Shown in pieces: positions 1,158-34,891 of a DNA stretch of 64,000 nucleotides. Origin of the DNA: a virus; IMG/VR virus record IMGVR_UViG_3300044712_001084, positions 1 to 64,000 of that record; one strand, written 5' to 3'. A model generated the notes under the pieces. That model worked only from the letters and a program-made list of their open reading frames with translations, searched no databases and had not been told where the DNA came from. A program made the position numbers and the translations under genes. Each line of letters begins with the position of its first letter. Within the stretch, counting starts at the first letter, position 1.

Positions 1158-2342
1158 TCAGTCACCCAGCACGAATTCCAAGGCACGTCTCAACTCTGGC
1201 GACAAGTCCACTAATTCATTGAAACCATCGAATTTGCGACCAAAGTGTTCCACGGCTGCCAGCTTGAAATCATTATCCGGCATAGCATCCAGCATGTAAG
1301 CCAGTCTGCGCTGAACGTCTGTATTGATCGTATTATCCACCCTCTTCCAGTCCAGATACACGTTGTACAGTTCTAACATCTGGAGGCAGTTGGTAAGGAA
1401 TGGATCCATAAGATAGCCGCGTTCTTTCTCAGCCGAACGCCCAGCAATCCCAGCGTCCAGAATTTTGAACACCTGGTTCAATTGCCAATCGAGGTCTTGT
1501 ATACGCGTATTGAACCCACCCGCTGGTTGCACGCCATAGTCGTAAATGGAGCCACCCTTGTAGTGCTCCACGATAGATATCGCACGATCATAATGCCTGG
1601 AATAGAGGTGGAACGATGAAATGAAATAGGTGAGTGGGCCCATATCCACGCCAGCCCAGTACGCCATCATCATATGCAGCACACTCCACTCAAAGGTATT
1701 GATGCCGCTGAAGCCCCAAAGGATATCGCTGGAGCGCTGGGCCACGTTCATACGCAGAGCCATACGGCTCTCGATTGTTTGAGAAGTGTATTTATTCTGG
1801 GTGCTGGACTTGACCACAAAGTCGCTGTGGCGAATGAGCCAGTGGATCCAATTGTTACAAGGGATATCCTTATAATCTCCATAGTCGCTGGCAGGGTCCC
1901 ATAGGCTCATGACCGCACGCCGCGTTTGCGGGTCATCATGTAAAAGGCTGGCGCACTGTTTGACTTGATCCACCTCTAGAAAGTCGGGCACCTCGTTATG
2001 GGCATGTCCCCAGTTGCGCAAGCGTGCCCCATAAGCTGCGCGCCATGTTCTTCCATCATCGGAAAAGTCCACAGCACGCGGCAGATAGCGTACCAAGAAT
2101 TCCATATCGTTGCGGCCAGCCAGTACCCATAACGTCTCTGCGATCTTGTGGAAGATATTGTCATTGCGCTTGGGTAGGATGAAGCAACGCTCAGCTGGGT
2201 TCTTGATGGTGAGCGTGACGTTGGTAAGCTCTTTTGTCTCATTACCGCGCACGACCTCGGTGACGCCATCAGCTAGCACTGTACTGAGCATATTCACCAG
2301 AGCCGCTTGCGCGTTCACGTAATTGGTGTTAATCCAATTCAT
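1158..2342 (-). CDS. Thymidylate synthase / pyrimidine hydroxymethylase family protein
   Basis: This 394-residue protein has the ThyA fold signatures. They are an arginine-led strand RRAVMSLWDPASDYGDYKDI, the catalytic cysteine in PCNNW, the QRSSD phosphate-binding motif, and GINTFEWSVLHMM followed by HLYSRH. ThyA-family enzymes methylate dUMP, or in some phages hydroxymethylate dUMP or dCMP, using methylene-tetrahydrofolate. At ~394 aa it is longer than classic ThyA (about 264-320 aa). The residue aligned with the Asn that reads the pyrimidine is shifted within GINT, so substrate choice cannot be read here. With the dCTP deaminase and thymine-modification proteins at 34-42 kb, a dUMP hydroxymethylase is plausible. 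A GGGAG ribosome binding site precedes the start. Confidence 0.8.
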   Translation of the reverse strand: MNWINTNYVNAQAALVNMLSTVLADGVTEVVRGNETKELTNVTLTIKNPAERCFILPKRNDNIFHKIAETLWVLAGRNDMEFLVRYLPRAVDFSDDGRTWRAAYGARLRNWGHAHNEVPDFLEVDQVKQCASLLHDDPQTRRAVMSLWDPASDYGDYKDIPCNNWIHWLIRHSDFVVKSSTQNKYTSQTIESRMALRMNVAQRSSDILWGFSGINTFEWSVLHMMMAYWAGVDMGPLTYFISSFHLYSRHYDRAISIVEHYKGGSIYDYGVQPAGGFNTRIQDLDWQLNQVFKILDAGIAGRSAEKERGYLMDPFLTNCLQMLELYNVYLDWKRVDNTINTDVQRRLAYMLDAMPDNDFKLAAVEHFGRKFDGFNELVDLSPELRRALEFVLGD

Positions 2343-7470: not shown

Positions 7471-7896
7471 CTAGCGTTTGTAAGATCCGTAAGGACCTTT
7501 TGGTTTTACATCGTCTAGCGTCTTCTCTTCATCCGTTATGGTACGTGGACGTATGGTAGGATGACTCTTTGACCAATCTTTGACTATGCTGGATATAGCA
7601 ATATCCAAGGTCGTCACGACCTTATTCAATTTGGATGCCGATGACCCGTAACCAGAAATTTTGAAACCATCTTCTACTTTGGTGATCGAATAACCGTAAG
7701 GTCTCAATTTTGCTTTGCCTACTTCTACATAAGCAGTTCCACCTATAACGTCAATAGTTCCAGTCACATTATCGAATTTAGCCGCTAATGCGGCAGTATC
7801 ATTACTTGGCGCAGAGCCTCCAACCAAACCTGGCCTACCTTCATGACCGAAGTTCCCACTTCCTGATCCACCTTTGAACCGCATAGTCAGTTTCAT
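7471..7896 (-). CDS. Tagged protein with GSGNFGHxGRPG peptide; domain unknown
   Basis: This is 141 residues. Residues ~6-29 are the shared peptide (FKGGSGSGNFGHEGRPGLVG, then GSAPS). The rest is a small strand-rich domain with a GGTAYVEVGKAKL segment and a basic C-terminal tail (PKGPYGSYKR). I do not recognise the domain. The next gene upstream carries the same N-terminal peptide, so they are probably a pair with a shared destination. AGAGAGG precedes the ATG. Confidence 0.7.
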   Translation of the reverse strand: MKLTMRFKGGSGSGNFGHEGRPGLVGGSAPSNDTAALAAKFDNVTGTIDVIGGTAYVEVGKAKLRPYGYSITKVEDGFKISGYGSSASKLNKVVTTLDIAISSIVKDWSKSHPTIRPRTITDEEKTLDDVKPKGPYGSYKR

Positions 7897-7905
7897 AATA
7901 CCTCT

Positions 7906-8613
7906 CTAGCGTACGTTATCCACAAACCAATCTTCAATGGCGCTGGGCATGGGCTCACCCATCACGAAGTTAGCAAACATGTCGCAAAAGGCTTCTTCAT
8001 AAGAGCCGTTATAATTGGCGTAGCCTGACATAGAGCCACGATGCTCCCTCCAGACGTTATCGCGCCACGAGGTCAATACTGGGTTCGTCTCTACACGTCC
8101 TCTGCTACCTCCAGGTAATTTTACGAGGTCTGCGGACTTCACAGAGTTCTGCTTCCACCACAAATGTCCATACTCGTGACTCACGACATGCTTCAGCAGC
8201 GCGTCTCTATCGTTAGCGCCAGAGAACCCAAACCACTCGGCTCTATTGTAAGTGGAACCTGGAGATTTACTTGGTGGGTCATCTAATCTCCATGGCGCAA
8301 TATAGATATAGTTCTTGCCATCAATCCTGGTTGACCGTCCAAATGGATCTGAAGAGCCAGCCGCCACCGCGCCAGAGCTTCCAATGACAATCGCTTCAGG
8401 GTCATCCATAGCAATAGTGGCATGGATATCGGCCACCGCGTCATTGATCAAGGTGTGGTCAGCATCAGATAACGTCTTGCCAGTGGGCTTCTTGCTGACT
8501 GGATCCACGAAAGATATCTGCACGGCTGCGCTACCACCAACCTTGCCTGGTCTACCAGCATGACCAAAGTTGCCGCTTCCCTCTCCACCTTTGAACCTGA
8601 TACTCAACTTCAT
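7906..8613 (-). CDS. Tagged zincin-type metallopeptidase
   Basis: This is 235 residues from the ATG with GAGG upstream. Residues ~7-29 are the shared peptide, and the rest holds HVVSHEYGHLWW, a zincin HExxH motif (His146, Glu147, His150). SYEEAFCDMFANFV about 60 residues later could give the third zinc ligand Glu. The likely role is cleavage of a host or virion protein. Small tagged zincins in phages are often thought to enter the cell with the DNA, but no direct evidence is visible. A terminator lies upstream. Confidence 0.72.
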   Translation of the reverse strand: MKLSIRFKGGEGSGNFGHAGRPGKVGGSAAVQISFVDPVSKKPTGKTLSDADHTLINDAVADIHATIAMDDPEAIVIGSSGAVAAGSSDPFGRSTRIDGKNYIYIAPWRLDDPPSKSPGSTYNRAEWFGFSGANDRDALLKHVVSHEYGHLWWKQNSVKSADLVKLPGGSRGRVETNPVLTSWRDNVWREHRGSMSGYANYNGSYEEAFCDMFANFVMGEPMPSAIEDWFVDNVR

Positions 8614-8643
8614 ACGCACCTCACTCTATCCTTATATAAACTA

Positions 8644-11738: not shown

Positions 11739-13985
11739 TTAAAATACCATCCCACCGCCCATCGAGGAATTGTCCCAAAAGGCCAAGCAGACAGAGTCCC
11801 CATAGTCAGTGGATCTACCCAGCCGCTCAGATATGTCGTTTTTACTTTCCAGCTTGATTACAGCGTCTTTTTGCATCTCATACTTGGGCGTAGATAGGTC
11901 CAGCACGAGTTCTTCCACCGGAGGGAGCATAACTTCAGAGCCGTATTCTGGATCCAATAGTTCCCGCATATTCCACCACATCGCAGCGCGTACATTTAGG
12001 AAGCGTAACTCCTTGCTACGATCCACCCAGGTCGTTCCACCCGACACCGTTATGGGTCGCAGCAGTGGTACATTGGACTCGTGTAATATATCGTAGAGCG
12101 ATGCGCCAAGCCCTCCATCAGTCTCGATATGCAACTCATAGCCTCTGGAAAGACTCTTGACGTAGCCAGCAAGGGATGTAATTGGAAGCTTCGAAAAGTA
12201 GTACATGTCGGAGATGACCAAGCGTTGTCTCCGTGCGCACACGGTTTTGTCAACCCCAGCACGCGCCACGTCCACGCCCAGGGCACGCTTGCCAGATTGC
12301 GGAGTCCTCCCGTTGGCGTGCCAAGCCTTCCAGCGCTCTGTAGCAGCCCTTATCCACGACAAAGGTATAACACCCTCTTCGCTAGAGTCAGCGAACTCCC
12401 CCAGGACGCGATTGAGGAATATAGAAGAGGACGCGCCCCACTGGCGCTCCCTCTGGCGTACCCACTCGCTAGATATGCGCCCTGCCTTTATGGCTTCATC
12501 CACTGTTACATGTCTAGTCTTCCAATCCTCATACCCTGGCTTATGGGAGTGGATGTCGTAGAATTGGCCTGATGGATCTCCAGGGGTAGATATGGCGAAT
12601 GCGAATGCCTCATCTGTAGTACCATCGTGAACGCTGGCTTCCTGGTTAGAACCCATTGTACCATCGACCTCTCTGGGTTGCTGGGTTTTGCTGGGTAGTG
12701 GGTTAGTATGGGATGCCCTGGTTCCCTGGGTTCCTATGGGTTGCTGGGATATGCTGGTAGCCCTTGGGTTGCTGGATTCCCTGGGTCGTTGGGAAGTATG
12801 GACGCGATGGAGCACGCCAGAGGTGCGTGGACTCGATGGCTCAGGTTGGCTGGGGTGGTGTGGGGCAAAACCCACGTTATCACCCACTTTCGAAGCCACT
12901 CCCTCCCCCAAGCCATCACCCACTCCCTCACCCAAGTTATCCCCCATACCAAACTCCACTCCCTGATCCACGCTTATACCCACTCCCTCCCCCATACTTT
13001 CTAACCCATCCCTAATACCCATCCCTGACATTCCAAGACTGATAGCTGCTGCTCCATCCGTTATTCTTCCACTCTTTACTCTATCCCTAATACTAGCCTC
13101 CCTTACGCTATCCACTCCCTTTACGCTATTGCTTACGATCTCCGAGAATGGACCTCCAATCAAATTTTTCACAACCGCTAGCCCACTCGCATTAGTGGCT
13201 ATACTAGGTGCTGGGTTCAGCTGGACTGCCTCCACAACCACTTTTCCTTTTATACCACCGTTGAATGGTAATCGCGTGATGGCCATCTTACCAGCGTATT
13301 TGCTACCATCCTTTAGCGCTTCCCATCTATCGATATTTGGATCACCCTCTGTGTCCTCGATTGCCATCTTGATATTCTTGGCATTGCTAAATGCGCCCTC
13401 TGCTGCATCCCAAGTCACTCTTGGAATAGCCTTGGCCTCATCGAATATGTATGTTAATCTTCTGGCGTGAGCACCCTCTATCGTATTATGATCGTCAGAT
13501 GCCACTGCGAATGCCTCCACTGTTCCAGATGACAATCGTATGGCTAATGACAAGAACTCTTTGTTGGGATCATATGGCTCTCTACCTATCAATGCCCAAT
13601 CCAAATGCCCAGCCAACTTTCTTATCTCTGGCCATAGGTACTTTTCTAACTGGCGCCATGCACTTGCCGTGGTTATAGTCTTGGCATCTGCCTCTGCTGT
13701 TAGCACTGAATGATGGGTTAGCAATGCTGCCATAAACGTCTTGCCTAATCCATGTGGACCTCTGACTGCCACTCTAGTATAGCCCTCGTCATAATACCCA
13801 AGAATTTCTTCCTGGTAAAATGCTAGCCTCTTGCCTAATGCGCCCAGCATATCGTATGCGAATGCTACCCTGTCTTTAGCATACATGCGCTGGAATTTGC
13901 GGAACTTGCCTGACGTGGATATCTGGGCATGGATAGCCAGCGAGAGGTCTGCTAAGTTGCCTGGTGTGCCAATTGACTGTAACAT
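11739..13985 (-). CDS. terL: Terminase large subunit with low-complexity insertion
   Basis: This is the packaging motor ATPase/nuclease, 748 residues. The Walker A motif is GPHGLGKT (76-83), Walker B is LTYIFDEA (177-184), and the coupling motif lies in FAISTPGDPSGQFYDI (~462-477). The RNase H-like nuclease follows with acidic residues in GVDVARAG, HIETDGG and TDYGDS. Residues ~201-457, between Walker B and the coupling motif, are an insertion not expected in the family. It is rich in Gly, Val, Asp and Ser with repeats such as GEGVGDGLGEGV, and its DNA holds tandem G-rich and C-rich runs. Without it the protein would be ~490 residues, the usual length. No intein borders (Cys/Ser start, HN end) are seen. 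Confidence 0.88.
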   Translation of the reverse strand: MLQSIGTPGNLADLSLAIHAQISTSGKFRKFQRMYAKDRVAFAYDMLGALGKRLAFYQEEILGYYDEGYTRVAVRGPHGLGKTFMAALLTHHSVLTAEADAKTITTASAWRQLEKYLWPEIRKLAGHLDWALIGREPYDPNKEFLSLAIRLSSGTVEAFAVASDDHNTIEGAHARRLTYIFDEAKAIPRVTWDAAEGAFSNAKNIKMAIEDTEGDPNIDRWEALKDGSKYAGKMAITRLPFNGGIKGKVVVEAVQLNPAPSIATNASGLAVVKNLIGGPFSEIVSNSVKGVDSVREASIRDRVKSGRITDGAAAISLGMSGMGIRDGLESMGEGVGISVDQGVEFGMGDNLGEGVGDGLGEGVASKVGDNVGFAPHHPSQPEPSSPRTSGVLHRVHTSQRPRESSNPRATSISQQPIGTQGTRASHTNPLPSKTQQPREVDGTMGSNQEASVHDGTTDEAFAFAISTPGDPSGQFYDIHSHKPGYEDWKTRHVTVDEAIKAGRISSEWVRQRERQWGASSSIFLNRVLGEFADSSEEGVIPLSWIRAATERWKAWHANGRTPQSGKRALGVDVARAGVDKTVCARRQRLVISDMYYFSKLPITSLAGYVKSLSRGYELHIETDGGLGASLYDILHESNVPLLRPITVSGGTTWVDRSKELRFLNVRAAMWWNMRELLDPEYGSEVMLPPVEELVLDLSTPKYEMQKDAVIKLESKNDISERLGRSTDYGDSVCLAFWDNSSMGGGMVF
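12615..13385. repeat. Low-complexity, G/C-run insertion inside terminase gene
   Basis: The plus strand shows repeated GGGTTGCTGGG-like units around 12670-12860 and then CCCACTCCCTC-like units around 12895-13020. Both are unlike the rest of the window. The reading frame stays open throughout. The G-runs could form quadruplexes. Confidence 0.6.
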
Positions 13986-16761: not shown

Positions 16762-16917
16762 TCACTCTATACGCTTAGAAGCCTTTACAGCGTCAATCGC
16801 TTCTTGTACAGTGAGTATACCTCTGCCGAACTTCATAGCCAAGTCATCTGATATAGAGTCCATTGGAAAGTTGGACGCGTCTGCCAGCGTGCCAGCGGAA
16901 TCCGCTTCCTTTACCAC
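16762..16917 (-). CDS. Possible 51-codon ORF overlapping the tagged zincin gene in +1 frame
   Basis: From a GTG at 16917 the frame reads MVKEADSAGTLADASNFPMD and on to ILTVQEAIDAVKASKRIE. It has a natural amino-acid mix and an ATG option at 16863. It overlaps the C-terminal tag copy of the preceding gene. No clear ribosome site is seen, so either a coupled small gene or a decayed or frameshifted end of the zincin gene. Confidence 0.28.
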   Translation of the reverse strand: MVKEADSAGTLADASNFPMDSISDDLAMKFGRGILTVQEAIDAVKASKRIE

Positions 16918-18013
16918 CCTTGAGTCTTATTACCTCTTTACGCTCTGAGCCTCCAGCGCGCACGCCAAACTTCATAGAGCCGTCTTTGTAATACACTTTG
17001 ACAATCGTGGCTTTACTCTCGTCAACGACCTCGAACTGGTCGTTGATGTAGATAATCCGCTCAATATCGCTAGCGCTTGCCTCCTTGGCGCTCGTTGGCG
17101 TAGACGGCTGCACTAGAGGATATATAGCATTGATTTGTCGGTATAATTCCTTCCACACATAATCAACCTCGTGCATATGACCGCTATAGTCTAGCCGGGC
17201 AATCTCAGCTAACGTCTCGTTGATAGCCAGTGAGCTATATGGATCAGCCTGATAGTATGACCTGCTATATGCCGTCACACCATCTTTGGTGCGTAATTCC
17301 TCGGCATTATCCTCGATGTAGCGCATAATGACGTAGGATTGGTACTTATTTTCATAATCGGCATTACGCAAATTGCCGTCAGGCTTCATAATATATTCCA
17401 GCCTGGGCACACCTTTATCCATCTGCTCACGCATAATATTATCTATATCATACTTATCACGAGTATACTGCTCACTGAACATTTGCCATTTATCGTGCAT
17501 GACTTCGTGAGCCAGTACAGTCTTGGATATTTGATTATCCTCATTGGTATTATTATTACGTTGGAATGCTTCGTCATATAATCTTATATGCCTATCTATA
17601 GGACTATAATCTCCAGCAGCCTTCCATTTTACGTCACCGACTTGGAAAGGATATCCAACACCCTCGTAAGATATTAGAGCGGCATCATAACCCAAGCGCT
17701 CTGCTAAATGAGGAATTTGATCACGGAATGCCTCAACACGTTCTCTATGCTCTCTAGATAATCGATGTAGCGCAGCACGCTTGGCAGCCGTCTTATCAGC
17801 GAACTTTGGATCAGCTTCAATAGCGGCTGCTCGTAAACCAATGCGCGCATGGCCGCCACCTTTAGCAGAGCCGCCACGCAAGCCTGGTCTGCCTTTATGA
17901 CCGTAATTACCAGAGGTGGGCCCACCTTTGAGTCGGATAACTGACTTGGGTGTATGCAGCCAGTTCTCCCATTCAAAATCATCCAATAAATCTATATCTA
18001 GGTTAGTTGCCAT
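16844..18013 (-). CDS. Tagged zincin-type metallopeptidase with second tag-like C-terminus
   Basis: This is 389 residues. The shared peptide is at ~25-50 (RLKGGPTSGNYGHKGRPGLR, then GGSA), preceded by an acidic 24-residue leader. KTVLAHEVMHDKW gives HExxH (His169, Glu170, His173), and NETLAEIARL about 95 residues later could supply the third zinc ligand. Residues 361-378 repeat the tag start (VIRLKGGKGSG), then drift (FRWHAGRR). The likely role is a virion-carried or cytoplasmic protease. It overlaps the end of the ADP-ribosyltransferase gene, so they are co-expressed. Confidence 0.7.
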   Translation of the reverse strand: MATNLDIDLLDDFEWENWLHTPKSVIRLKGGPTSGNYGHKGRPGLRGGSAKGGGHARIGLRAAAIEADPKFADKTAAKRAALHRLSREHRERVEAFRDQIPHLAERLGYDAALISYEGVGYPFQVGDVKWKAAGDYSPIDRHIRLYDEAFQRNNNTNEDNQISKTVLAHEVMHDKWQMFSEQYTRDKYDIDNIMREQMDKGVPRLEYIMKPDGNLRNADYENKYQSYVIMRYIEDNAEELRTKDGVTAYSRSYYQADPYSSLAINETLAEIARLDYSGHMHEVDYVWKELYRQINAIYPLVQPSTPTSAKEASASDIERIIYINDQFEVVDESKATIVKVYYKDGSMKFGVRAGGSERKEVIRLKGGKGSGFRWHAGRRVQLSNGLYIR

Positions 18014-19532
18014 AATCCCAATCCTCTATATAAAAATCCATAGTATCGTCAGTGTTCAGCGTCACCACCTCTCCAATATCATCTGAAAATGTAATAGGTG
18101 GCGCCACTCCAGCATCTCTGGGCAATATCCATACATCTTCCGCTTTCACAGTTCTAGATAGCACCAATCCAGTCAACCGTCTCGATTTATTACTGGCGAA
18201 TAAGTAGGCTCTACCTCTATTATTAGAGAACGATGATAATCCATAAACTTTAGCAGTCACGTGTTTATCGGCATCTTCTATCGTTATACCAGCCTTCTCC
18301 AGCATAGCGGTGCGTAATTTACCAGCATAACGTCCATTTACACCTCTATACATGACTACTTCTTCGCCATACAACTCTCTGAACAAGGCTTGATTATATT
18401 CCTGCCTAGCCTTGAAACCGGCAATCTGCCTATCCGTCAGTTGGACGTCAATCAAACCTTTAGGTTTATTCTTATTAGTCGTCAACGTGTTTATAGCAGC
18501 CCATTCATTATAAGCGCTGCCTGGCGACATAGTCCAATTTTCTTGCGAACCCATTACAAATAACATAGTTTCACGATCTGTCTTGGACTCTATATATTGC
18601 GCCATAGCGTAATCACGCGTCAGATTGCCTTGCCCTCGAAACACGCGCTGACCCAAATGAAAATATGAAGCTGAATATGAATCACCTCCATAAAACTTAG
18701 CATATTTGCGCTCATTAGCAAGTAGATACTGATGTAAATCCTCGATATATGGGTCATCTTCCGCTAACTGCGTGACTATAGCGCTAGATGGCGCAGAGCC
18801 GCCAACCTTACCAGGACGTCCTGCGTGGTCAAAATTACCGCTGCCTTCTCCACCTTTGAGTCGGATAGCGCCACGCTCTTTCTTCACCTCGCCATTATTA
18901 TACAGGCTCTTTATATAGTCATAGAATTTGCCTGGATTGCTGTAACCCATAGCCTTTATAGCCGTGCGAACAGCTTGCTGCGTGGACACGATACCTGTTT
19001 TGGGTGATAGAGCGTAATCACTGGTATGTAAGCGTAATTGATTCAAACCAAATCTACGCTCCCATTGAAAATACTGGCTGCCACCTCTCGAATAGATCAT
19101 ATAATCAAACTCTGCTTCAGACATCTTCAGCAAAGGCTGTAATTCATTCCATCCGATTAGATTGGCGGCTGGGTGCTCAGCTGCATAACCTTTCAACGCG
19201 TGTAATAGATAGCCCACCGACATCTTATCTTGCGCAGATGCCTTTGGAATATCTGGCCCAGGCTCGTTTATAGAGGCAATAAAATCCTCTCTTGATACAT
19301 CACCCCATACGATATTCTGTATGCGTTTATTGACATGATCCGCATAGCCTCTAATATCAGGCTGCTGAAGTCTGGCGTAAGTGGCAATATTGACGTTCTG
19401 ATCCCAAGCCAAGCGCTGGTCACTTGTAAGAGCCGCATCACCATCGACCACGCTACCACCAACTTGGCCTGGTCTACCAGCGTGACCGAAGTTTCCAGAG
19501 CCTTTACCACCCTTCAATCTAATAACTGCCAT
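18003..19532 (-). CDS. Two-module tagged protein with ADP-ribosyltransferase-like domain
   Basis: This is 509 residues. Tag 1 is at 3-27 and tag 2 at ~222-248, each starting xIRLKGGxGSGNF. The first module (~30-220) is helical and unrecognised. The second ends in an ADP-ribosyltransferase-like domain of the R-S-E type: MYRGVNG (Arg396), GLSSFSNNRGRAYLFASN (Ser433-Phe435), and a Glu in DDIGEVVTL (~488). Such enzymes move ADP-ribose from NAD to proteins, and phages use them to reprogramme host machinery. The EXE/QXE dyad is only partly visible, so activity is uncertain. Two tags suggest two fused tagged genes or a polyprotein. Confidence 0.65.
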   Translation of the reverse strand: MAVIRLKGGKGSGNFGHAGRPGQVGGSVVDGDAALTSDQRLAWDQNVNIATYARLQQPDIRGYADHVNKRIQNIVWGDVSREDFIASINEPGPDIPKASAQDKMSVGYLLHALKGYAAEHPAANLIGWNELQPLLKMSEAEFDYMIYSRGGSQYFQWERRFGLNQLRLHTSDYALSPKTGIVSTQQAVRTAIKAMGYSNPGKFYDYIKSLYNNGEVKKERGAIRLKGGEGSGNFDHAGRPGKVGGSAPSSAIVTQLAEDDPYIEDLHQYLLANERKYAKFYGGDSYSASYFHLGQRVFRGQGNLTRDYAMAQYIESKTDRETMLFVMGSQENWTMSPGSAYNEWAAINTLTTNKNKPKGLIDVQLTDRQIAGFKARQEYNQALFRELYGEEVVMYRGVNGRYAGKLRTAMLEKAGITIEDADKHVTAKVYGLSSFSNNRGRAYLFASNKSRRLTGLVLSRTVKAEDVWILPRDAGVAPPITFSDDIGEVVTLNTDDTMDFYIEDWDYGN

Positions 19533-21735: not shown

Positions 21736-21951
21736 CTAATCCTTGCTGCGCAACTGAAACTTCTTTTTACGAGGGCCACTGGGTGTCGTAATGGCCGCCA
21801 ACGCAGCCCTCCAGGCATCATCCAAGGCTTCGTCCTTTACTTCCTCAGTCCAGATACTGGCACCAGTCGGTTTACCATTATCATCCACGATCTGGCCGTC
21901 CGGCTGCGTCTCTGGCTCAACGGTTTTGGCGCTGCTTAGCTTTACTCTCAT
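21736..21951 (-). CDS. Small hypothetical protein
   Basis: This is 71 residues from the ATG with GGAGAGG upstream. It is mostly polar and disordered, with a basic end (SGPRKKKFQLRSKD). It overlaps the GNAT-like gene by 35 bp. It may be a small virion linker; no family is seen. Confidence 0.55.
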   Translation of the reverse strand: MRVKLSSAKTVEPETQPDGQIVDDNGKPTGASIWTEEVKDEALDDAWRAALAAITTPSGPRKKKFQLRSKD

Positions 21952-23173
21952 AGTATGCCTCTCCAACTCGATAGCTCAATGAATCATCTGCCATATACTT
22001 TATGGCTTGCCAACTGGAATTCAGCATGGACTCTTTACCTAATTTGAAACCATCTGGACCTACGAATGCCGCAATCTCCCAAGAGTGCTGTAAGGAATCC
22101 AACGTGGATCTAGGCATAGCCGTATTATAGCGCTGGCTCCACATACGCTCCAATTTGGCTTGAGCGCCAATCAGATACGTCTCGTGCCTGAAATCGAAGC
22201 CCATCCTGGCCCACGCGTACCCACCTACGTCAATATTGGCGTAAATAGTGACCTCTTTGATGCCAGCTTCTTTATAAGTCACTTCACTGGATTGATACCA
22301 GGCAGAGCCGAACCCAGTACCTTGCTGACTACCATTCAGAGTGAATAGGTCGTGATGAACTTCCTTCAACTTTACATAAATAGAGCGTGTAAAGCCACCG
22401 ACATAACTACCATCGGCAGTTCGCACAATACCTTCCACTTCAACCGTTGGACCTCTAGACCCATCCTTCAACGTTATCGATTGAACTATACCACGCGTAC
22501 CCGTAGTTTCATCCACAGTATTCCAAGCTTCTTCTACAAAATCCTCGATGGGCTTGGTATATCCTGCTTTTGTCCAGGCTTCTAATACGTCTCTATCAGT
22601 AACACTGAGCGGTCCTCGCAATTGATTTTTCACCTCGGAAGCCAGAGGCTCAACCTTCAGACCTTTCTTTGGATTGATAGCCTTATCAGCTGGCTTGGGA
22701 TAATCCATAGTAGGCTCAGTCATACGCGGCTTGGGGTGTGACCATAGGTCCCATTCCTCCATAGCTCTTTGCCGCGCCAGCCCTGCCTCGAATGATGCTG
22801 TCACATTACCCCAACCTTGCTCACGCGATATGCGATATTGTAAATCATATGCCTCTTGGCCGCGCAACTCACGCGTAGCGTTATCGCGCAAATCCGCATC
22901 CCATATCTCATACTGGCGCTGTCTCGCATCACGCCCATAATCCTCTGCCATGGTACGTGACCAACCAGCACGCATCTGGCGCGTGACCTCGGTGGAGCGT
23001 GCTCGTTCTCCAGCATTCAATCTATCGCGTCTGGCTTGCTGCTCTGGCGTCAATTCTCTGGGCGCTGAACCACGTGCTGGCGCTGAACCTCCGACACGCC
23101 CAGGTCTGCCAGCGTGACCAAAGTTCCCAGAATTATCATTGCCTTCTTTCCAAGTGACCACTATCTTACCCAT
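21917..23173 (-). CDS. Tagged protein with GNAT-like domain
   Basis: This is 418 residues from the ATG with GAGG upstream. The tag at ~5-31 is divergent at the start (WKEGNDNSGNFGHAGRPGRV, then GGSA). A long charged helical region (40-150) follows, then a GNAT-like fold: QQGTGFGSAWYQSS resembles the acetyl-CoA pyrophosphate loop and IDVGGYAWARMGFDF matches a motif common in phage GNAT-like proteins. Acetyl transfer is therefore possible but the loop is atypical. It overlaps the HGG zinc protein upstream by 8 bp. It may be a fourth injected effector. Confidence 0.62.
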   Translation of the reverse strand: MGKIVVTWKEGNDNSGNFGHAGRPGRVGGSAPARGSAPRELTPEQQARRDRLNAGERARSTEVTRQMRAGWSRTMAEDYGRDARQRQYEIWDADLRDNATRELRGQEAYDLQYRISREQGWGNVTASFEAGLARQRAMEEWDLWSHPKPRMTEPTMDYPKPADKAINPKKGLKVEPLASEVKNQLRGPLSVTDRDVLEAWTKAGYTKPIEDFVEEAWNTVDETTGTRGIVQSITLKDGSRGPTVEVEGIVRTADGSYVGGFTRSIYVKLKEVHHDLFTLNGSQQGTGFGSAWYQSSEVTYKEAGIKEVTIYANIDVGGYAWARMGFDFRHETYLIGAQAKLERMWSQRYNTAMPRSTLDSLQHSWEIAAFVGPDGFKLGKESMLNSSWQAIKYMADDSLSYRVGEAYYESKAKQRQNR

Positions 23174-23858
23174 CTTGAACCTCGCTGTAATCTGGAAGAT
23201 AAACTTCGCTGCGCCGCATATCGACATTCTGAGCAACTTCTCCACCCAGTCTAGCCGCTAACTCACGTGCCGCACGTTCTCGCACGTTTGGATCCGTGAT
23301 ATACTTTGAGAATAAATCAGCCACCGTGGCTCGTAATAATAAAACTTGCGCAGCCGTGAGTGTATTGCGGGCATCGGTGCGCGATATCTTTTCCACCAGC
23401 GTGCCTATGGATCCAATGACATTCAAAAACCGATTGAGCCATATCCCATAATTATCATCCCCAGGCTCTGGAAATAAGGACACCATTTCAGCATAAATAG
23501 CCTTGGCCGTAGCCAACTCATAATCGAGGTTCAATAACTTACCACGATCTTGATTCAGATATTCCTGGATCTGGTCATTGAGCCGCGTGCGCGTCACAAA
23601 CGCTGTGCGCCCAGTGCGAATGTTGGGATTGGCTGATGTATTTCCACCGTGAAACGCGCACGCGCCTGTACCAACGTGCCAAGTCTTATACCCAGCTGGG
23701 TTGGTGCAGCGCAACGCGTGATCTTTATGCATGCGCCTGAAACAGATTGCCTTTTCCTCTCGATTGGCTGGCAACTTGACAAAATAGGTCGTGCCACCCG
23801 GTGTGCCAGGCTCTTCGCGTATATTTCCAGCGCGTATTTTTGAGAATTCAACCGACAT
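23166..23858 (-). CDS. HGG zinc-motif protein, possible small terminase
   Basis: This is 230 residues from the ATG with AGAGG upstream. RCTNPAGYKTWHVGTGACAF followed by HGGN is a Cys/His motif seen in phage proteins often encoded near terminases and sometimes annotated as small terminase; this comes from memory of the family. The rest is helical (ATAKAIYAEMVSLF; VEKISRTDARNTLT), which fits an oligomeric DNA-binding ring. The large terminase is 9 kb further on, so the link is not tight. Confidence 0.5.
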   Translation of the reverse strand: MSVEFSKIRAGNIREEPGTPGGTTYFVKLPANREEKAICFRRMHKDHALRCTNPAGYKTWHVGTGACAFHGGNTSANPNIRTGRTAFVTRTRLNDQIQEYLNQDRGKLLNLDYELATAKAIYAEMVSLFPEPGDDNYGIWLNRFLNVIGSIGTLVEKISRTDARNTLTAAQVLLLRATVADLFSKYITDPNVRERAARELAARLGGEVAQNVDMRRSEVYLPDYSEVQDG

Positions 23859-23876
23859 ATGGACCTCTACATATAA

Positions 23877-23906
23877 ATTCACGTCAGTATATTTACTGAC
23901 GTGAAT
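23877..23906 (-). terminator. 13-bp perfect hairpin
   Basis: ATTCACGTCAGTA and its complement around a 4-nt loop, followed by TTTATAT on the minus strand. It ends the lysis cassette and sits 19 bp before the next start, with no promoter motif between. The stem shares CACGTCAG with the 3817-3863 hairpin. Confidence 0.72.
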
Positions 23907-23930
23907 GTTTACCAGGAATAATGACAATTA

Positions 23931-31622: not shown

Positions 31623-34313
31623 TTACATCAATGATAATTCTAGCGCCAACTCTTTATCGCAAGGCTGGCCATATTCCTCTAGCCATTCATCCAATCCCAT
31701 CTCAGCGCCATAATGCGTACCAACCTCAATATCTGCCTTGAGTGGGGTTCTGAGCCAAGAAAAGTCCAGCCCAGGCGCATACTGGGCCGCGTAAGTGGCT
31801 ACATTCTCCATAACGTCTTTGCATAATCCGGCATATGCTACAATCTCATGTCGTGGAGAGTCTGCCACCAACGAGTCATGTACTGTATTTACTAGCTTAG
31901 AATACAGTCCAGTGTCTCGCAACTTACGATCTATTATTGTCAAGGCAGTCAATAACGTGTCGCTGGCAGCCGATTGAACTGGCATGTTGACGGCTGCGCG
32001 CCTGTCTTTATTCTGGAAGCCTCTATCGCGTGGATCATTGATATATGGCAAGTGCTCACGTCTTCCAAAGGGTGATTCAATATAACCATTATCCTCTGCG
32101 AAGCTCTGCGTCCACTTACGATAATCCAGTACCTCTGGAAAGATATCGTAATATATCTCAACTGTTTCCTCGGCATCCTCTAGAGGGATATCGTACAGCC
32201 TGTGGAGCGTATAAGCATCGCCACCATATAGCAACGTCCAGTTTGTCCATTTATAGCGATAGCGCACTGGCTTGGGCAGAGCCTTTATTTCACCATCTTC
32301 GACATCAAACGGAGATTTATGCGTCATGGCCATAATAGCCACGACTGAATGAAAATCCTTGCCTGACTTGATGATATCGATCATGGGCTGGCAATTAGCC
32401 AGTGAGGCAAACACCCGCAATTCCATACCAGAATAGTCCGCTGCCACGAGTGCGCCGCTATCATAGATATTATCATATACAGGCCACGGATTGTACCCAA
32501 AGATATCAGCAAAGACCTCTAGCCAATCGGAATGCGTGAATACATTCTTGATAGGCATATGCTCCAGTATCGTACCCGGCTCTTTCTCTGGAGTGGGTAT
32601 GTTTTGGAGATTCAATGGCCTGGATGATGATAACCGTCCAGTAACCGTGCCATGCTGATTATAGGTCGTGCGCACTTTACCATCGCTAGATGACCACTTA
32701 CCTTCGGCTGCTGGCCGCAAGTAAGTTCCCAGCATCTTAGACAATAACTTGTAATAACGAATTTTGTACAAGATGGGGTGCTTGGACTCTAGCGGACGAT
32801 AGGATTTTGACGAGGTGGTTGGTGCTCCAGACTTCGTTTTGCCCACCTCTGGTAATTTGTAGTGTAAGAAGTACAAATCGCGTAATTGATTGGCAGAGCC
32901 TGGATTGAAAATATACGGCTTGGGCTGGCGCTTCTTACCAACGCTATCTTGCCGTAATTTTTTATTCACCTTGCTCATCATACTCTTTACTTTGGGATCA
33001 TCCAAAACCACTTGGAAGGCTTTATCGCGCAATAGCTCGTATATTCCAGCATAGCGCTTAGCCACGTAAGCATCCAATGGCAATCCGTTGCTCTGGATAT
33101 GACGCAAAGCATTAGTGGCCGCCACCACTAACTCATGGTATAAAGTCTTTTGCGTATCCGATAATTCTGGATACAACTTGCGCTCCAACTGAAGCGTAGC
33201 CCAAGAGTCTTTGGCACCATAAGGTAATAGAATATCCAACGGTATTTTAGCGTAACTGCCACCGCGTTCTGGATTAGCCTCTGGGTGCTGCTTCTTATAT
33301 ACCTCTAGCTCTGAATCATAATCATACATTCCCAAGTGAACGCCAGCAAGACGTTTCAACCCATGTACACCCTGTCTAGAGTCCAGCAAATGACTGATTA
33401 GCATCGTATCACCGCCAGCGTCCACGTCTATACCCAACCTGGCGCTAACGTGCATCAAGTCAAACTTTACATTATGCCCAGATAAATGACCGCTATGGCT
33501 CTGGAATATATCGCGCAATATTGTCTTTAGCTTAGCATTACCTAGAAACCACGACTCAGGGTGATCCACAGGCAGAGAGTACGCTACACTCCCGGCTGCG
33601 AATGACAATGATAATAGTAAGCTACCATCCAAATATGGATCAAGTGTAGAGGTCTCAACGTCAAACGTAATATCAGTGTGCTGGGCTAGATAGCCTTGCA
33701 TAGCTTTGACCTCTGCCAACGTCTCTGGATATATGTATTGACAATCCTCTCGTTGCTCAGCGTCAATCGCGTTGGTGATAGCTTCTAGCCATTCATCCAT
33801 GTGGCTAGAGTCACGCAAAATATAGGCTGGGTGATAAAGAGGCACAAAGCGCACAGTGAATTTGTCGCCATAGCCGTCTTCCACCTCTTTATCGATAATA
33901 GAGCCGTGCCAGTTTGTAATACCATTCTCACCCAGCACGCCAGATAATGCGCTGCCACCCATCAAAAACACCAAGGCTGGCTTATAATCGAGGATATCTT
34001 GCAGCGCAAATCGACTGCAATGATTCATCGCCATCTTGGTGATCTTGTTGTCTGGTGGGCGGCAGCGCACCACGTTCGTGAAGCGCACGTCAGCGTCAAC
34101 GTCAAATAATTCCTCTAATACCTGGCGCAGTAAGGCACCCGACTTGCCTACAAAAGGTTGACCCTGGCGGTCCTCATCCTCTCCAGGTGCCTCACCGATA
34201 ACCAGCAATCCAGGCTCTTCAGAGCCGTATGACTCCATGAACGGTGTCTTACAACCCTGCCACAGATCGCATTTGACGCATATATCGTTGCGCTTACCTG
34301 GCCGCTTGGTCAT
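31623..34313 (-). CDS. Uracil-DNA glycosylase (family 4) fused to DNA polymerase A
   Basis: This is 896 residues from an ATGA-coupled start. Residues 1-~200 are a UDG-4 domain: CVKC plus two later Cys (VVRCRPPDNK, NHC) for an iron-sulfur cluster, GEAPGEDED and HPAYILRD. Next comes a 3'-5' exonuclease (FDVETSTLD, GHNVKFD, YGAKDSW), then the polymerase: VAADYSGMELRVFA (motif A), RYRYKWTNWTLLYGG (O-helix) and TVHDSLVAD (motif C). In the O-helix the residue aligned with E. coli Phe762 is Trp, and motif C reads HDS, not HDE. It replicates the phage genome; the UDG part would remove uracil from template or product. Confidence 0.9.
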   Translation of the reverse strand: MTKRPGKRNDICVKCDLWQGCKTPFMESYGSEEPGLLVIGEAPGEDEDRQGQPFVGKSGALLRQVLEELFDVDADVRFTNVVRCRPPDNKITKMAMNHCSRFALQDILDYKPALVFLMGGSALSGVLGENGITNWHGSIIDKEVEDGYGDKFTVRFVPLYHPAYILRDSSHMDEWLEAITNAIDAEQREDCQYIYPETLAEVKAMQGYLAQHTDITFDVETSTLDPYLDGSLLLSLSFAAGSVAYSLPVDHPESWFLGNAKLKTILRDIFQSHSGHLSGHNVKFDLMHVSARLGIDVDAGGDTMLISHLLDSRQGVHGLKRLAGVHLGMYDYDSELEVYKKQHPEANPERGGSYAKIPLDILLPYGAKDSWATLQLERKLYPELSDTQKTLYHELVVAATNALRHIQSNGLPLDAYVAKRYAGIYELLRDKAFQVVLDDPKVKSMMSKVNKKLRQDSVGKKRQPKPYIFNPGSANQLRDLYFLHYKLPEVGKTKSGAPTTSSKSYRPLESKHPILYKIRYYKLLSKMLGTYLRPAAEGKWSSSDGKVRTTYNQHGTVTGRLSSSRPLNLQNIPTPEKEPGTILEHMPIKNVFTHSDWLEVFADIFGYNPWPVYDNIYDSGALVAADYSGMELRVFASLANCQPMIDIIKSGKDFHSVVAIMAMTHKSPFDVEDGEIKALPKPVRYRYKWTNWTLLYGGDAYTLHRLYDIPLEDAEETVEIYYDIFPEVLDYRKWTQSFAEDNGYIESPFGRREHLPYINDPRDRGFQNKDRRAAVNMPVQSAASDTLLTALTIIDRKLRDTGLYSKLVNTVHDSLVADSPRHEIVAYAGLCKDVMENVATYAAQYAPGLDFSWLRTPLKADIEVGTHYGAEMGLDEWLEEYGQPCDKELALELSLM

Positions 34314-34891
34314 TTGGAACTGTAATAATCGTAGTACCACTGAATAAGAACTGCGTCATCCTCCAGCGTGGGCGCATCTGATACGGTGGCACGAATCCGC
34401 TGGGCCAGTTCAGGCTCGTTGAATTCTTCCTTTACCGTGTCTGCGCCAGACAATACGCGCATGATAATATAGCTGCGTACGTCCTGGAGTAATTGCGATT
34501 GTCCATCATCTAAACTGCGCAGAATCAACTCTGGGAACAATACTGGCGCGTGCCAGTGGGACACCTTGGAGAATTTATCCATAAGATTATCGGACACCTT
34601 ATGGACAACCTCTTGCTCATATTCCCAGCGCAGCCGCAATAGGGCCAGCAACCCATAGGCCACGGTGTCGCGCATCGTTTCCTCGATATCCTCGTCAGCC
34701 ACCATAGCCTTGCGCCCATCAGATAACGTCTCCAACCGTGTGAGTTTATCCTTGATGCGGATCAATGGAGTGAAAATACCGTTGGCTTGCCAGGCATCGC
34801 CATAATCAGCGTTCTTCTTGATAATCGTGTCCAGTAAACCGTCCACGATGGTTTGCAAGGCTTCTTTAGTAACATTCACTTTATCGCTCAT
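34310..34891 (-). CDS. DUF1599 (Nmad1) protein
   Basis: This is 193 residues from the ATG with AAAGGA upstream. IIKKNADYGDAWQANGIFTP, IRIKDKLTRLETLSDGRK and EETMRDTVAYGLLALL match the DUF1599 core, named 'nucleotide modification associated domain 1' because it clusters with base-modification genes. Exact chemistry is unknown. It lies two genes downstream of the HMUDK-helical protein, which supports that context. The C-terminal ~90 residues are helical and unassigned. Confidence 0.68.
   Translation of the reverse strand: MSDKVNVTKEALQTIVDGLLDTIIKKNADYGDAWQANGIFTPLIRIKDKLTRLETLSDGRKAMVADEDIEETMRDTVAYGLLALLRLRWEYEQEVVHKVSDNLMDKFSKVSHWHAPVLFPELILRSLDDGQSQLLQDVRSYIIMRVLSGADTVKEEFNEPELAQRIRATVSDAPTLEDDAVLIQWYYDYYSSK

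Follow-up and report, generated by a model that had tools for sequence, protein, structure and literature searches.

A glycine-rich peptide tag, carried twice by a 509-residue phage protein, as a candidate capsid-cargo signal

A double-tagged protein and its modules

The window analysed here is a 64,000-nucleotide stretch (positions 1 to 64,000) of the IMG/VR virus record IMGVR_UViG_3300044712_001084 (G000). A gene on its minus strand encodes a 509-residue protein in which a short glycine-rich peptide, hereafter the tag, occurs twice, once at the N terminus and once ahead of the second of two modules. The gene and its parts are as follows.

18003..19532, minus strand: double-tagged protein gene; 509 amino acids (aa), ATG start, no internal stop
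19452..19526, minus strand: tag copy 1; residues 3-27, VIRLKGGKGSGNFGHAGRPGQVGGS; profile score 56.9 bits, E = 2e-16
18870..19451, minus strand: module 1; residues 28-221; no family match, no homologue found
18792..18869, minus strand: tag copy 2; residues 222-247, AIRLKGGEGSGNFDHAGRPGKVGGSA; profile score 58.8 bits, E = 5e-17
18006..18791, minus strand: module 2; residues 248-509; weak similarity to HCTV-16 gp113

The N-terminal tag reads MAVIRLKGGKGSGNFGHAGRPGQVGGS (19452-19526), and the profile match to copy 2 spans residues 222-246. The two copies proposed in the original prediction are borne out as full copies and, because their E values come from a profile run over the whole 74-kb genome, chance is excluded for both. 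A few rows of the profile (alignment A6), which was also used to find tags in sister phages, are approximate rather than exact copies. Fragments of about 24 and 31 kDa had been expected from a division at the second tag; the calculated masses, 24.5 kDa for residues 1-221 and 32.2 kDa for residues 222-509, come close. An in-frame GTG lies at codon 216, six codons upstream of tag copy 2. We saw no convincing ribosome-binding site for this codon; it may be left over from an ancestor in which the gene was separate.

Module 1 was called helical solely from a poor single-sequence AlphaFold model (mean predicted local distance difference test score of 32), and we made no use of that model. A likeness between module 1 and a solo protein of the related phage locus L126 vanished once the tags were removed. 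Module 2 had been described as ADP-ribosyltransferase (ART)-like, an assignment that profile comparisons did not confirm: the module has no Pfam match up to E = 10, hhalign against the ART modules of other tagged proteins gave a probability of 0.5% with no profile match, and comparison with the tagged ART of the related phage G016 was negative. Motif-like residues can be picked out by eye (YRG, SSFS and IGEVV, with an isoleucine in place of the first acid of E-x-E), and the label is held back because the profile tests failed. Module 2 does weakly match a stretch of HCTV-16 gp113 (E = 2e-3), a 1209-aa zeta-toxin protein whose gene lies between a MuF gene and the prohead protease, a likeness that fits a head-cargo role. 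Searches for a MuF domain in the double-tagged protein, for a useful match to the tag or module 2 among solved structures, and, by scan, for close relatives of the whole 509-residue protein all returned nothing.

Distribution, cassettes and uniformity of the tag

A DNA pattern for the tag core was scanned over IMG/VR and the GTDB species genomes. It matched at least 118 places in IMG/VR and 14 in GTDB, the latter mostly in Clostridia but also in Desulfosporosinus, Sulfuricaulis and Terriglobus. Running a tag profile on the open reading frames (ORFs) of these loci yielded 208 distinct tagged ORFs among the matches listed, with one tag in 155, two in 37, three in 13, four in 2 and five in 1. An internal tag is thus an ordinary part of the system, since 53 of the 208 carry more than one copy. 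Among the 186 ORFs with an intact 5′ side, 103 have their first tag no more than 60 residues from the ORF opening, and 54 have it more than 150 residues away. These positions and the multi-tag ORFs uphold the argument, drawn earlier from the internal copy in the window protein, against a purely N-terminal signal. All 163 ORFs with an intact end continue for at least 42 aa after the last tag (156 of them for at least 100 aa), and tags within one ORF are spaced at least 88 residues apart, which together indicate that each tag precedes a domain. Glycine occupies five successive third positions (GNF GHA GRP GEV GGS) in 256 of 274 tags, a collagen-like Gly-X-Y run.

Other searches added little. When 50,697 phage records were searched by tblastn with only the tag as query, nothing useful emerged, a result that does not imply absence because the query was probably masked as low-complexity. 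A DNA pattern for the RLKGG-type tag had no match outside the window phage, and we found no description of the tag, motif strings included, in the open-licence PubMed Central (PMC) literature. Small tagged proteins of three related phages (L007:12111-12749, L127:15361-15864 and L126:10141-10569) share a C-terminal YSxYD ending, possibly a second signal.

The tagged units behave as cassettes. Splitting the tagged ORFs at their tags and clustering the resulting modules placed the same module both alone and in fusions in 18 of the 45 clusters with at least two members. The window phage's own lineage provides direct examples: the major capsid proteins of L126 (G005) and L127 (G006) are 61-64% identical to that of the window phage, and capsid matches place G015 and G016 in this lineage as well, a placement that protease and portal matches also support for G016. 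With tags removed, the two modules of a double-tagged L126 protein each have a counterpart in G015, encoded by two separate genes with one tag apiece (34% identity over 129 aa, E = 1e-18; 34% over 106 aa, E = 2e-19), and the second half of a 512-aa double-tagged protein of G016 resembles a 317-aa tagged gene product of G006 (40% over 224 aa, E = 5e-46). A 533-aa protein of G016 matches a 286-aa protein of G006 in its first (51%) and last (53%) parts, with one tag-plus-270-residue unit inserted. The refuting outcome, in which every relative retains the fusion and separate genes never occur, is contradicted by these other double-tagged proteins of the lineage. Fusion of tagged genes, as the original prediction proposed, is therefore supported by the relatives, both in the clusters and in the sister-phage pairs, but not by the modules of the window protein themselves; because its own module pair was not found, the fusion history of the 509-residue protein is read from its relatives. 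These comparisons support the view that multi-tag proteins arise by the joining of tagged units.

A Pfam run on 160 tagged ORFs links the tag to genes for head proteins. Portal domains occur in 24 (17 PF06381 and 7 PF04860), MuF in 11, and the prohead-protease families DUF2213, S78 and XkdF in 9. Among the remaining families are ART, zeta toxin, TopoIB, Ntox50, NUDIX, zinc peptidases, PBECR3 and 2H phosphoesterase, the last including weak Acb1-type matches; no tail or replication-core family is among those listed for the 160 ORFs. Some tagged proteins combine several domains, as in portal plus 2H plus zeta toxin or portal plus 2H plus TopoIB. At L042:5979-8897, L109:7392-9275 and L019:6205-8526, tag-module units lie between a DUF2213 prohead-protease domain and a scaffold-like part of the same ORF. 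The window phage itself has an untagged 2H phosphoesterase fused to a 398-aa head-operon protein (72100-70904 of the record) encoded between portal and protease. G016 has the homologue of this head-operon protein without such a fusion, and the 2H domain there (46% identical over 169 aa, E = 2e-45) is flanked by two tags within a 491-aa protein. The tag and a head-operon protein are thus alternative carriers of the same cargo.

The form of the tag is uniform within a phage. Pairs of tags from one contig share the residue directly before the GG in 81% of cases, compared with 18% after shuffling (z = 33); agreement at the N-terminal neighbour of that residue is only 15%. At silent positions of the tag glycine codons, agreement is 0.338 for matching and 0.288 for non-matching positions, and because this is near background, recent DNA copying fails to explain the uniformity of the pre-GG residue. 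The tags of G006, G015 and G016 take a shorter form, LKSFPxHxGIPGHQGGSLP, in 8, 14 and 9 copies, respectively, and the long form has no more than one match there. Such a concerted change across unrelated proteins of one genome points to one reading partner per phage, a candidate phage-specific reader of the tag.

Tagged genes and their genome neighbourhood

Record G000 has 74,005 bases, and about 127 bases, read from its printed ends, are common to both, so it is probably a complete circular genome. The profile finds eight tag matches in six of its proteins: the two in the 509-residue protein, four other good ones, one diverged and one decayed. The other tagged genes and the neighbours of the double-tagged gene are listed below.

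7471..7896, minus strand: tagged gene, 141 aa; N-terminal tag 7810-7884
7906..8619, minus strand: tagged gene, 237 aa; N-terminal tag 8527-8601
11739..13985, minus strand: large terminase subunit; PHROG match; 56-68% identical to that of G006
16844..18013, minus strand: tagged gene, 389 aa; tag at residues 25-49 (17864-17941); HEVMH zinc-peptidase-like motif
16880..16933, minus strand: decayed C-terminal tag copy in gene 16844..18013; VIRLKGGKGSGFRWHAGRR; 25 bits
19536..20303, minus strand: GH25 lysozyme gene, directly upstream of the double-tagged gene
21917..23245, minus strand: tagged gene, 442 aa; diverged tag at about 23081-23131
23166..23927, minus strand: probable small terminase subunit; 57% identity with a G006 gene; homologous start at about 23858

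The start of the double-tagged gene follows closely on the GH25 gene, and its end shares 11 bases with the next tagged gene; the double-tagged gene sits between the genes for the probable small terminase and the large terminase. That next gene (16844-18013) encodes a module common to other tagged proteins; its decayed second tag, an exception to the rule that a tag precedes a domain, looks like the remnant of a lost downstream unit. The G006 homologue of the probable small terminase also borders tagged cargo genes, and between the terminase genes of that phage lie tagged zinc-peptidase-like, ART-like and nucleotidyltransferase-like genes, some of them named by eye.

Three further features of the genome were noted. 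The large terminases of the window (11739-13985) and of L147:5239-7617 are 56-68% identical at both ends, with about 200-250 middle residues that cannot be aligned. The window also encodes, at 31623-34340 on the minus strand, a family A DNA polymerase in which an N-terminal uracil-DNA glycosylase domain is fused to the exonuclease and polymerase domains. Adjacent genes at G000 64000-68200 (L007:3834-8116) and window 1158-2342 resemble, by eye, those for two P-loop kinases, a pyridoxal-phosphate-dependent enzyme, a radical SAM enzyme and a glycosylase-like protein; with a thymidylate-synthase homologue, they may form a thymine hypermodification pathway.

Possible roles of the tag

We favour the view that the tag is a transferable capsid-cargo signal, similar to the capsid targeting sequence of T4 and repeated before each domain. 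The tag, of about 25-30 residues, comprises a hydrophobic stretch, one phage-specific residue before the GG, and then GGxGSGNFGHxGRPGxxGGS; on this view it would stand ahead of each domain that the phage packages in its head and delivers to its host. Tagged domains behave as cassettes: some are encoded alone by small genes, some are fused to a head protein (portal, MuF or prohead protease), and others are joined head to tail in multi-tag proteins in which every domain retains its own tag. On this account the 509-residue protein would be two fused cassettes, with two cargo domains in one chain. Packaging could proceed via the portal, the scaffold or another head component; a head protease may cut near each tag, and the tagged domains would enter the host.

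The closest precedent is found in the T-even phages, whose heads carry and inject internal proteins that act against host defences, evolve fast and are otherwise unrelated to one another; T4 also packs the ADP-ribosyltransferase Alt (PMC3012670). The capsid targeting sequence is described as the sole part conserved among these internal proteins (PMC3012670). As in T4, one short conserved N-terminal sequence is found here on otherwise unrelated proteins, with internal copies besides. Unlike the T4 sequence, the tag is glycine-rich, can be internal, reaches five copies per protein, takes part in fusions to portal, MuF and protease, and occurs in very diverse phages. The two are likened by description rather than by alignment, the packaging of tagged proteins being our inference.

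The tagged domains are of the same kind as those of polyvalent proteins, as presented in the sections of Iyer et al. 2017 drawn on here (PMC5512222): predicted to be packaged in the head, these proteins carry ART, 2H, zinc-peptidase and PBECR domains, are encoded near portal and terminase genes, include some MuF or portal fusions, and have been proposed to be processed by embedded metallopeptidases. ART, 2H and NUDIX fusions to MuF and portal also appear in the relevant section of a further report (PMC9503650). Like polyvalent genes, the double-tagged gene belongs to a portal-terminase phage and lies near those genes, between the two terminase genes. The several unlike domains typical of polyvalent proteins are present in other tagged proteins, and the modules of the window protein have no Pfam match. 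Those same sections of PMC5512222 make no mention of a recurrent 25-residue tag per domain, and many tagged proteins are single-domain. In MuF polymorphic toxins, toxin domains are borne by a head protein encoded beside the portal (Jamet et al. 2017, PMC5576092); the carrier there is the MuF domain and here a short tag, which, as the 2H case illustrates, can replace fusion to a head protein.

An alternative, which we consider possible but doubtful, is that the tag serves mainly to be cut by the prohead protease or another protease, in which case multi-tag proteins and fusions to portal, MuF or protease would be putative polyprotein precursors, severed at every tag to release their domains within the head. 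Tags do lie between domains and are widely spaced, domains borne on a portal or protease-scaffold protein would need release before ejection, a phage's own residue just before the GG resembles the subsite preference of a protease, and heads of the T4 and SPN3US types cut cargo propeptides (PMC10052503). Against it, a cut at the 103 first tags that lie close to the ORF opening would free little, and the proline that follows the GG in 156 of the 274 tags is awkward for cleavage after that pair. By eye, no matching site was seen in the lineage's major capsid protein or scaffold, and we identified no motif at which a known prohead protease cuts. The propeptides of two SPN3US head proteins are likewise short (20-24 aa) and N-terminal and are cut after AXE (PMC10052503), but the tag has no fixed AXE motif. 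A cargo signal and cleavage as the main role are in part compatible. We tentatively raise a widespread, hitherto undescribed head-cargo code, in which the tag and a phage-specific reader would turn almost any effector domain into injected cargo, and tag arrays would be intravirion polyproteins cut at each tag.

The glycine content of the tag, its regular Gly spacing and its use between the domains of multi-tag proteins would also suit a tag that targets nothing and is conserved only as a flexible linker or as a spacer that favours fusion. We regard this as improbable: solo genes have the tag at their very N terminus, a place that calls for no linker; besides the glycines, H, S, N, F, R and P are conserved, and although the search pattern demanded several of these positions, it left the P and the final S free in the copies counted; and the form of the tag switches in concert across a genome. 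Module shuffling at tag boundaries might instead reflect a DNA-level recombination hot spot, with the peptide as a by-product. Conservation, however, resides in the protein sequence and not in the DNA, and within a phage, agreement at the synonymous sites of the tag glycines is barely above the level expected from codon use. Recombination at the tag is largely refuted by these silent sites, and we give this explanation the least credence of all.

Several observations weigh against a cargo signal. No reader protein for the tag was identified, neither module of the 509-residue protein has a separate-gene homologue that we could find, and the tagged genes at 7.4-8.6 kb do not adjoin head genes. 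The head-operon protein of the window phage is MuF by position only, with an inconclusive hhalign result, and we infer packaging into the head from the company that the tag keeps and from known families. Coherence of the pre-GG residue could partly reflect common descent of the tags within a lineage, though the silent sites speak against recent copying.

If the tag is a head-cargo signal, it would offer a sequence-only way to list the proteins that phages inject, many of which have no known function, and hence a means of discovering toxins and counter-defence proteins not yet known. How separate effectors get into the heads of phages that lack T4-type internal proteins would be answered as well. 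The per-phage residue before the GG makes the search for a reader or protease directly testable.
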